From positions 1,488,001 to 1,552,000 of the forward strand of contig NZ_AP022606.1 of assembly GCF_010728725.1 (NCBI RefSeq): a stretch of DNA of 64,000 bases, given 5' to 3'. The position numbers and the translations under genes were made by a program. A model generated the notes under the pieces. That model searched no databases and was not told the origin of the DNA. It worked only from the letters and a program-made list of their open reading frames with translations. The stretch comes from Mycobacterium branderi (GTDB lineage Bacteria > Actinomycetota > Actinomycetes > Mycobacteriales > Mycobacteriaceae). Shown piece after piece: positions 22,158 to 23,960 of the stretch (the stretch's first letter is position 1; each line of letters opens with the position of its first letter).

Positions 22158-23960
22158 CTATCTCGCCATGTTGGCGAATCTCGAAAGATGCAACTGGTGT
22201 GCGACTGTGACAGTCTTTGTCGGCCCATTGCGGTGTTTGGCAATGATCAAGTCCGCCTCACCGCCTCGCGGGTCGTCACGCTCGAAGGCGTCTGGCCGGT
22301 GTAGCAAAATCACCATATCCGAATCTTGTTCTAACGAACCGGATTCGCGTAGATCAGCTAACATCGGCTTCTTGTCGGTACGCTGCTCGGGTCCGCGGTT
22401 CAGCTGGCTGATCGCGATCACCGGAACTTCCAGCTCCTTGGCCAAAAGCTTTAAATGCCGGGAGAATTCGGATACCTCGACCTGCCGCGACTCGAACTTC
22501 TTGCCCGACGTCATCAGCTGCAGGTAGTCCACCACGATCAGTCGCAGATCGGCCTTTTGCCGCAACCGCCGCGCCTTCGCACGGATCTCCATCATGGTCA
22601 GGTTCGGCGAGTCGTCGATATACAGTGGCGCTTCGCTGATTTCGCTCATCCGCCGCGCCAGCCGGGTCCAGTCGTCGTCGCTCATCCGGCCCGAACGCAT
22701 GTCGGACAGCTTGATTTTCGCCTCAGCCGACAACAGCCGCATCACGATCTCGGACTTGCTCATCTCCAGCGAGAAGATGACGCTGGCCATCCGATGCTTG
22801 ATCGAGCAGGACCGCATGAAATCCAGCCCGAGCGTCGAGTTGTGCGTCGGAACCATCCCCCGCCCGGCCAGATACAGCTGCATAGGGTTGTCGACCTGCA
22901 CGCAGCGCACCGGGACGCTGCGCACCCGTCGCACCGCGTCCAGCTGCAACACCGGCGCCATCAGCGTCGCGCCGCCTTCGGCGTATCGCCCGATCGAGCC
23001 GGCGCCGGCGATTGTGTCCAGGCCGCAACGCAATTGGGCCGTGGTGCGGATGCCGTAGCCCGTCGGCCACTGGTGATCGGCGTCGGCGACGATGACCGTG
23101 CCGTCGGAGAACTCGACCTCGTAACAGGGCCGGCCCACCATGGCCTCGGTGGCGGCCACCACGCGCGTCGGCTGCCCGTCGGCGCCGAGCAACGCATCAC
23201 CGACCGCGACATCGCCCATTGTGGTCCAGCCGGTCGGGGTCGGCAGCGGGGTGTTGAGCGCCAGCGCCTTCCCCACACCGGGCCGGGCCGCGATGATGAT
23301 CATCTGCCCGGGATGCAGCCCATTGGTCACCTCGTCGAGTTCGGTGAACCCGGTCGGCACGCCGCGGGCCACCCCACCGTTGGAGGCGATCGCGTCGATC
23401 TCGTCCATCGTGGGCTGCAGCAGATCCTCCAGGGGCACAAAGTCCTCGGAGAGCCGCCGATCGGTCACGTCGTAGATCTCGGCCTGCGCCCGGTCCACCA
23501 CCTCGGCGACGTCGGCGCCCTCCGCGCCCGCATAGCCGTACTGCACCACCCGGGTGCCCGCCTCGACCAGCCGGCGCAACAACGCCTTCTCGGCGACGAT
23601 GCTCGCGTAGTAGCCGGCGTTGGCGGCCGTGGGCACCGTCGAAATCAGATCGTGCAGATACGGCGCCCCGCCGATCCGGCGCAGCAGGCCGCGCCGATCC
23701 AGCTCGGCGGCCACCGTCACCGCGTCGGCCGGCTCGCCGCGCCCGTACAGATCGAGGATGGCGTCGTAGATGTTCTGATGCGCGGGGCGGTAGAAGTCAC
23801 CGGGCCGCAGCCGCTCCAGCACGTCGGCGATGGCGTCCTTGGACAGCAGCATCCCGCCCAGCACCGACTGTTCGGCGGCGAGGTCCTGCGGCGGTTGGCG
23901 GCCGTAGTCCTCGCTGGGGGTGTCCATGCCCGGCTGACCGAGGTCGTCGACGACCGCCAT
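22158..23960 (-). CDS. dnaB: Replicative DNA helicase DnaB with embedded intein
   Basis: The precursor is 600 residues. The spliced helicase would be 457, the usual length. DnaB is the hexameric helicase that opens the fork and binds primase and loader. The N-terminal domain starts PPQDLAAEQSVLGGMLLS (23-40). The RecA-like ATPase has Walker A AARPGVGK at 224-231, continued by ST after the intein, and Walker B RLIVVDYLQLM. The C-terminal GPEQRTDKKPMLADLRESGS is conserved. The intein separates Lys231 from the next Ser, so the precursor cannot bind ATP until it splices. It lies downstream of the rpsF-ssb-rpsR-rplI operon in the same direction. Confidence 0.97.
   Translation of the reverse strand: MAVVDDLGQPGMDTPSEDYGRQPPQDLAAEQSVLGGMLLSKDAIADVLERLRPGDFYRPAHQNIYDAILDLYGRGEPADAVTVAAELDRRGLLRRIGGAPYLHDLISTVPTAANAGYYASIVAEKALLRRLVEAGTRVVQYGYAGAEGADVAEVVDRAQAEIYDVTDRRLSEDFVPLEDLLQPTMDEIDAIASNGGVARGVPTGFTELDEVTNGLHPGQMIIIAARPGVGKALALNTPLPTPTGWTTMGDVAVGDALLGADGQPTRVVAATEAMVGRPCYEVEFSDGTVIVADADHQWPTGYGIRTTAQLRCGLDTIAGAGSIGRYAEGGATLMAPVLQLDAVRRVRSVPVRCVQVDNPMQLYLAGRGMVPTHNSTLGLDFMRSCSIKHRMASVIFSLEMSKSEIVMRLLSAEAKIKLSDMRSGRMSDDDWTRLARRMSEISEAPLYIDDSPNLTMMEIRAKARRLRQKADLRLIVVDYLQLMTSGKKFESRQVEVSEFSRHLKLLAKELEVPVIAISQLNRGPEQRTDKKPMLADLRESGSLEQDSDMVILLHRPDAFERDDPRGGEADLIIAKHRNGPTKTVTVAHQLHLSRFANMAR
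22839..23267 (-). other. Mini-intein in DnaB (class 3 type, 143 residues)
   Basis: The intein covers residues 232-374 of the precursor. It begins with Ala (ALALNTPLPTPTGWTTMGD) rather than Cys or Ser, and ends GMVPTHN before extein Ser. The class 3 residues are present: Trp at intein position 67 (ADADHQWPT), the block F Cys at position 122 (PVRCVQVDNP), and Thr in the terminal PTHN. The penultimate His and C-terminal Asn needed for cyclisation are intact. No LAGLIDADG homing-endonuclease region is present, so the element cannot home. The insertion point (between GVGK and ST) is the one I recall for mycobacterial DnaB inteins. Confidence 0.93.

Follow-up and report, generated by a model that had tools for sequence, protein, structure and literature searches.

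In Mycobacterium branderi, the reading frame of the helicase DnaB is interrupted within its Walker A motif by a 143-residue insert. This locus raises two questions: what is the insert and how would the helicase be freed of it, and how does an intein without an endonuclease persist? The window, i.e. the whole stretch of DNA analysed, covers 64,000 nucleotides (contig NZ_AP022606.1, positions 1,488,001 to 1,552,000), and all features described here lie on its minus strand. The dnaB precursor (22158..23960) has 600 residues, consisting of an N-extein of 231, the intein of 143 and a C-extein of 226, and its reading frame matches Pfam DnaB and DnaB_C as well as TIGR00665 above their cut-offs. The N-extein (residues 1–231; 23268..23960) ends in AARPGVGK, the first part of Walker A, and the C-extein (22158..22838, stop codon included) starts with STLGLDF. 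The helicase models treat residues 232–374 as foreign, with DnaB_C resuming at residue 375 (Pfam) and TIGR00665 covering residues 23–599 (NCBIfam). This bears out the original prediction of a 600-residue DnaB frame in which helicase homology resumes past residues 232–374, and 600 minus 143 gives the spliced length of 457 residues that it had named. The dnaB gene is flanked by genes for L9, S18, SSB and S6 (Pfam), which is its usual chromosomal setting. A search of the genome (5.98 Mb, 2 contigs) with the DnaB protein gave no second match at E up to 0.001. With a single DnaB match, whose P-loop the insert splits, splicing is presumably needed, as had been supposed. By DnaB comparison, M. kyorinense, Mycobacterium sp. 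MFM001 and M. celatum are the closest named relatives.

The insert (22839..23267; DnaB residues 232–374) runs from ALALNTPLP to MVPTHN, is followed by Ser, and lies between the Lys and Ser of Walker A (GVGK/STLGLDF), the DnaB-b site. In a sequence search against solved structures it matched 6rix_A with an E value of 2.2e-69 and 6bs8_A with one of 6.2e-62, both over query residues 1–143, and also 6riy; end-to-end matches of this strength are not due to chance. An AlphaFold2 model of the intein, built on an alignment of 21 sequences, has a moderate mean pLDDT of 69, with residues 1–16 and 90–102 below 50. When this predicted model was submitted to Foldseek, 6rix, 6riy and 6bs8 came top among the solved structures, with other inteins after them, and the E values of 1.6e-15 (6rix_B) and 1.2e-14 (6bs8_A) point to a HINT fold. 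The Pfam Hint and intein models stay below their cut-offs on the insert (PF05203 E 0.037), and the weak NF038136 and PF05203 matches are to intein or Hint parts; annotation by such models alone could therefore miss it. The lack of a match to Hint-domain models had been named as what would refute the assignment, and on Pfam alone it would do so, but the match to solved class 3 inteins overrides it. No endonuclease family in Pfam or NCBIfam matched the insert at E up to 1, which agrees with the predicted lack of an endonuclease domain and makes it a mini-intein.

Class 3 inteins are characterized by a WCT triplet consisting of B:12 Trp, F:4 Cys and G:5 Thr, as described in PMC5050341. In the window intein, Trp67 (23067..23069), the block F nucleophile Cys122 (22902..22904) and Thr141 (22845..22847) align with Trp67, Cys124 and Thr143 of M. 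chimaera MchDnaB1, in the numbering given in PMC7664689. Ala1 (23265..23267) provides no N-terminal nucleophile, and the DxxH motif of block B contributes Asp62 (23082..23084) and His65 (23073..23075). The intein end PTHN/S comprises His142, the terminal Asn143 (22839..22841) and Ser+1 (22836..22838), which is both the Walker A Ser and, by the role reported in PMC6195587, the second nucleophile; class 3 inteins end in His-Asn with Ser, Thr or Cys at +1. All 236 distinct site-b alleles have Ala1, Asp62, His65, Trp67, Cys122 and Thr141, and all 109 of a first, overlapping set have the class 3 residues; the parsing of these relatives demanded the terminal His-Asn (THN in the first rule, HN in the later one) but set no condition on the Trp, on either Cys, or on Asp62 and His65. 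The Ala start, Trp67, Cys122 and the PTHN/Ser end were all as claimed, the third class 3 residue being Thr141. With its end-to-end match to 6rix and 6bs8 and its class 3 residues kept, the class 3 mini-intein predicted in the DnaB Walker A motif stands, and the insert is an ordinary member of a known family, the DnaB-b (DnaBi1) class 3 mini-inteins. Against four close relatives, the dN/dS of the intein is 0.12–0.16 and that of the extein 0–0.08, and intein dS is about equal to extein dS for the three nearest. Judged by these ratios, the intein is under purifying selection, less tightly than the helicase.

It is almost certain, by analogy with tested relatives, that the insert is a DnaB-b (DnaBi1) class 3 mini-intein that would splice by the class 3 route. 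In M. smegmatis DnaBi1, the block F Cys is reported to attack the N-terminal splice junction, and the N-extein is then taken by Ser+1, with later steps much like those of class 1 (PMC6195587). A branched intermediate via the internal Cys is described for the relatives (PMC6195587, PMC7664689), and a Cys-His-Thr triad was proposed from the M. chimaera structure (PMC7664689). Residues of the window intein align with this triad and with the block F Cys and Ser+1 of the tested relatives. In the proposed mechanism, DnaB would be made as a 600-residue precursor whose Walker A loop is interrupted at GVGK/S, the intein would fold as a HINT domain, and Cys122, aided by His65 and Thr141, would attack the bond after Lys231 to form a branched thioester. 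The N-extein would then pass to Ser+1, Asn143 would cyclise, and an acyl shift would yield the 457-residue helicase with its P-loop intact. In M. smegmatis DnaBi1, a Cys48–Cys118 disulfide is reported under peroxide, and every Cys48 substitution tried abolished splicing (PMC6195587). The equivalent redox partner in the window intein is Cys48 (23124..23126), and a Cys48–Cys122 disulfide is probably possible under oxidation, which would hold splicing back as in the M. smegmatis relative. Zinc is reported to be bound at C118, V119 and Y128 (PMC7360933), the equivalents of which in the window intein are C122, V123 and Y132.

The closest known system is M. chimaera MchDnaB1 (6rix, 6riy), a class 3 intein of the same host protein and the best match in both sequence and fold; it has 145 residues, two more than the window intein, and the identity is about 70–72%. 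M. smegmatis DnaBi1 (6bs8, 6own) shares the P-loop site b, class 3, the lack of an endonuclease and both redox-toggle cysteines, but has 139 residues, and the window intein possesses a third Cys (Cys81). Moreover, M. smegmatis DnaB has a second intein, at site a, whereas site a is empty in the window. The M. leprae DnaB intein is by description at the same site, of class 3 and without an endonuclease (PMC6195587), and has 145 residues (table in PMC8861304) against 143. The 417-residue DnaB-b inteins, such as that of Mycobacterium sp. E3251 (L078), resemble the window intein in site, class 3 residues and kind of N-block (intein codons 1–67), but L078 also matches LAGLIDADG_3 and Hom_end above cut-off, has additional sequence that begins at residue 70, and differs in its inner tract.

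The M. tuberculosis DnaB intein, of which the insert had been thought an endonuclease-free relative, belongs elsewhere. It is likewise an intein in DnaB, but it is described as a class 1 intein at site a, in the H4 motif (PMC6195587; Kelley 2018), with 416 residues (table in PMC8861304), and PMC7360933 gives DnaBi1 as not conserved in M. tuberculosis. Inteins of that family have the H4 insertion and Cys1; in the window, site a is empty (ESG/SLEQD, 22335..22340, by sequence comparison) and the insert lies at the P-loop with Ala1. Since site and class both differ, the idea that the insert is a copy of the M. tuberculosis intein was rejected, and the proposed kinship is not supported. In M. celatum and M. 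kyorinense, an insert starting with Cys is found at site a, which is empty in the window and in MFM001; its presence varies among very close species. A literature search found no papers on the DnaB inteins of M. celatum or M. kyorinense.

Across the genus, 276 of 396 genomes surveyed have an intein match at E up to 0.001, and 137 of the 276 have a full-length match of mini size (counted from hand-copied rows). Loci for the conservation analysis were recruited by similarity to the window intein or to one large intein and parsed by a K/S insertion rule. From 249 loci, 245 were parsed, and merging of 9 duplicates left 236 distinct site-b inteins; of the 137 genomes with full-length mini matches, a part contributed loci. 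Among the four unparsed loci, L264 is a short stretch, and L174, L192 and L291 show normal motifs, Cys48 included, that the parsing pattern missed. The first, overlapping set was drawn from 141 loci, with no end found in L071 and L108 and with L141 being another gene. The 236 alleles fall into two size classes, 129 minis of 136–146 residues and 107 large alleles of 270–417, the latter comprising 67 of at least 400 residues and 40 shortened ones of 270–399. A length of 143 residues, which had been held to be remarkable and very compact, is common in this company, given the 129 minis, the 145 residues of the M. leprae intein and a plasmid copy of only 130. Longer DnaB inteins in some mycobacteria are already listed by databases. 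Most of the loci L224–L263 are shortened large alleles, many of which match the 417-residue form at both ends only, without its middle stretch. Five large alleles were read over their whole length, and in these the extra sequence begins at residue 70. According to PMC5050341, DnaB-b inteins lack endonucleases; LAGLIDADG_3 and Hom_end were above cut-off in two of ten longer inteins scanned (L078 and L098), with L091 below. Since only L078 and L098 pass, the inteins of 217–278 residues have no assigned extra domain.

Inserts at this site also occur in dnaB genes on plasmids. The 130-residue intein (L151) lies in the dnaB of the M. alvei plasmid pJCM12272 and ends in LTHN rather than PTHN. Inteins of 233–237 residues occupy the same DnaB site in L153, on an M. 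avium plasmid, in L075, which is an additional dnaB of the M. kyorinense DSM 45166 assembly, and in L073 and L074 from Mycolicibacter; L073 and L075 give no Pfam match above cut-off, yet have Pro68 as in minis. A recent arrival of the window intein from phage was rejected, as none of 365 matching phage records covers 80% of the query; the 30 of these 365 matches that are listed have 46–76% coverage and 40–60% identity. The same genome contains a RecA intein (G000:C1:4692771-4693019; locus L141:232-2364), in a 710-residue RecA frame with LAGLIDADG_2 above and Intein_splicing below cut-off, and this insert appears to begin with Cys.

The original prediction held that the intein persists without homing, and this is only part of the story. 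For 232 alleles (126 mini and 106 large, classed by length; four others without a full flank were left out), the mini/large label requires 37 changes on the extein (dnaB) tree, 23 of them forced by well-supported branches. So many changes of the mini state on the dnaB tree point to exchange between alleles. On the N-block tree the label requires 34 changes, 6 of them forced, this short alignment resolving less. Codons 1–67 of the intein (23067..23267) track the host gene whether the allele is mini or large, whereas in codons 68–143 (22839..23066) mini and large alleles differ, most strongly around codons 70–80 and fading toward the C-terminal end. The excess of between-class over within-class divergence is about 1–5% in every 60-base extein segment and every varying segment of the N-block (codons 1–66), and 17–25% in the last 36 codons. 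Among disjoint mini–large pairs whose flanks are at least 0.90 identical, all 20 show lower similarity in the last 36 codons than in the N-block (means of 0.697 and 0.870, with 0.918 for the flanks); so do 43 of 62 same-class pairs, by a small margin (0.898 vs 0.911).

It is very unlikely that the switches between mini and large reflect replacement of whole inteins by horizontal transfer or homing. Such movement is made thinkable by the existence of phage, plasmid and chromosomal relatives and by the LAGLIDADG matches in two of the ten longer inteins scanned, but codons 1–67 would then have moved as well, and they track the flanks alike in both kinds of pairs: at 87–89% flank identity, the N-block identity is 0.811 for same-class pairs (847 pairs) and 0.808 for mini–large pairs (655 pairs), with 0.784 and 0.650, respectively, in the last 36 codons. 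The left edge of the class-specific tract is sharp, since at 89–92% flank identity codons 57–67 give 0.836 between and 0.857 within classes, and codons 70–80 give 0.435 and 0.802. The right edge fades, with between-class values of 0.541 (−36 to −25), 0.736 (−24 to −13) and 0.732 (−12 to −1) and within-class values of 0.789, 0.860 and 0.846. Nor does it seem likely that each mycobacterial mini arose alone, as the large intein of its own lineage lost the endonuclease region by deletion, in spite of the many switches on the dnaB tree and the 40 of 107 large alleles already shortened. At residue 68, 128 of 129 minis have Pro and all 107 large alleles have Leu. A tree of mini codons 70–80, matched by the RTT motif, together with the last 36 codons (226 of 232 rows; the large rows L209, L222, L223, L248, L253 and L259, which have no RTT motif, were left out) needs a single change of class label, with an SH-aLRT of 99, against 51 for the C-extein and 35 for the N-block in size-matched controls; codons 70–80 alone need 2 changes and codons 57–67 need 43. 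The large-only insert sequence is in none of the tract trees. The last 36 codons alone require 5 changes (2 forced) and the last 26 alone 11, against 37–50 for four 36-codon controls; that the tail alone needs more than one change is more congenial to local deletion. The sister pair L322 (mini) and L206 (large) leans the same way, its last 24 codons being nearly identical (1.00, 0.94), as local deletion would leave them, although even these two differ in the segment before the tail (0.72). Local deletion fares better outside Mycobacterium: the minis of other genera (7 in the named set) have no Pro68, and the two-class count on a wider protein set is 6 with and 2 without them, so that the minis there probably arose separately.

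A different objection is that the class signal past codon 67 stems from convergent amino-acid selection, the mini tails adapting to the missing large insert, and not from shared ancestry. Many positions past codon 67 do differ in amino acid by class, and the synonymous measure for codons 68–75 is mixed and mostly negative, where few between-class pairs share an amino acid and codons 70–75 of the large alleles belong to the insert. In the last 36 codons, however, synonymous differences at codons for the same amino acid carry the class signal (mean 0.049–0.058), which is absent from the N-block and exteins (about 0.005 in flanks and N-block; Mann-Whitney p of 3e-6 and 2e-6, with codons not fully independent). 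At third positions, codons 70–80 plus the tail need 9 changes against 47 for the C-extein, and the last 36 codons 17 against 48, 53 and 59 for controls. We regard convergence as improbable on these grounds. That the insert is a splicing-dead remnant, with DnaB working around it, is hardly credible, because the insert interrupts Walker A in the single DnaB that was found; a nonfunctional insert was rejected on account of the class 3 residues, all of which are kept, and the low dN/dS.

A single split by class in the homologous codons past 67, set against no fewer than 23 switches on well-supported branches of the dnaB tree, suggests exchange of an internal tract instead of fresh local deletions. 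The simplest account suggested by these results is one old split of the inner tract into mini and large forms in Mycobacterium, followed by repeated tract exchange through recombination. The fading right edge and the L322/L206 pair count against the simplest form of this exchange model, and the near-identity of the L322 and L206 tails means that the tail is sometimes left out of the exchange. The mosaic result is based on a small number of tract columns, fast tree-building, loci recruited by similarity and a single genus. No description of mini/large tract exchange was found in paper titles or the starts of abstracts, in a search that covered mostly open-access literature. On the joint reading, which we consider likely, two old families share the P-loop site, one mini and one large, some of the latter with an endonuclease. 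At least about twenty switches between them would have taken place by exchange of the inner tract only, from codon 68 to varying points in the tail and usually including the region of the catalytic Cys, while the first 67 codons stayed with the host. On the same reading the minis would be a long-lived, recombining lineage and not products of repeated local decay, and the redox cysteine pair would be older than endonuclease loss, so that redox sensing would not have originated as a substitute for homing.

The age of the cysteine pair turns on Cys48. This residue is called non-conserved in PMC6195587; all 236 distinct site-b alleles, mini and large alike, have Cys here, as do all 109 of the first, overlapping set, other genera included. 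In nine distant class 3-like inteins compared by eye (eight phage records and one phage-like plasmid), the position is Cys in six and Ser or Thr in three; one of the six, L149, begins with Cys and may be of another class. Because Cys48 occurs in both size classes and lies within the N-block common to them, the redox link is unlikely to have been acquired after endonuclease loss at site b. On these alignments, Cys48 probably predates that loss.

What, then, does the locus add? With the insert, a family in which structures are already solved gains a further natural class 3 mini-intein. What goes beyond this is the pattern of allele exchange, a computed result that is relevant to the survival of inteins lacking an endonuclease. 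If mini and large alleles do exchange parts by recombination at their site, the splicing domain must tolerate parts that have long diverged, and persistence without homing need not require a benefit to the host. The presence of Cys48 in the large alleles too argues for a cysteine toggle older than the mini state.
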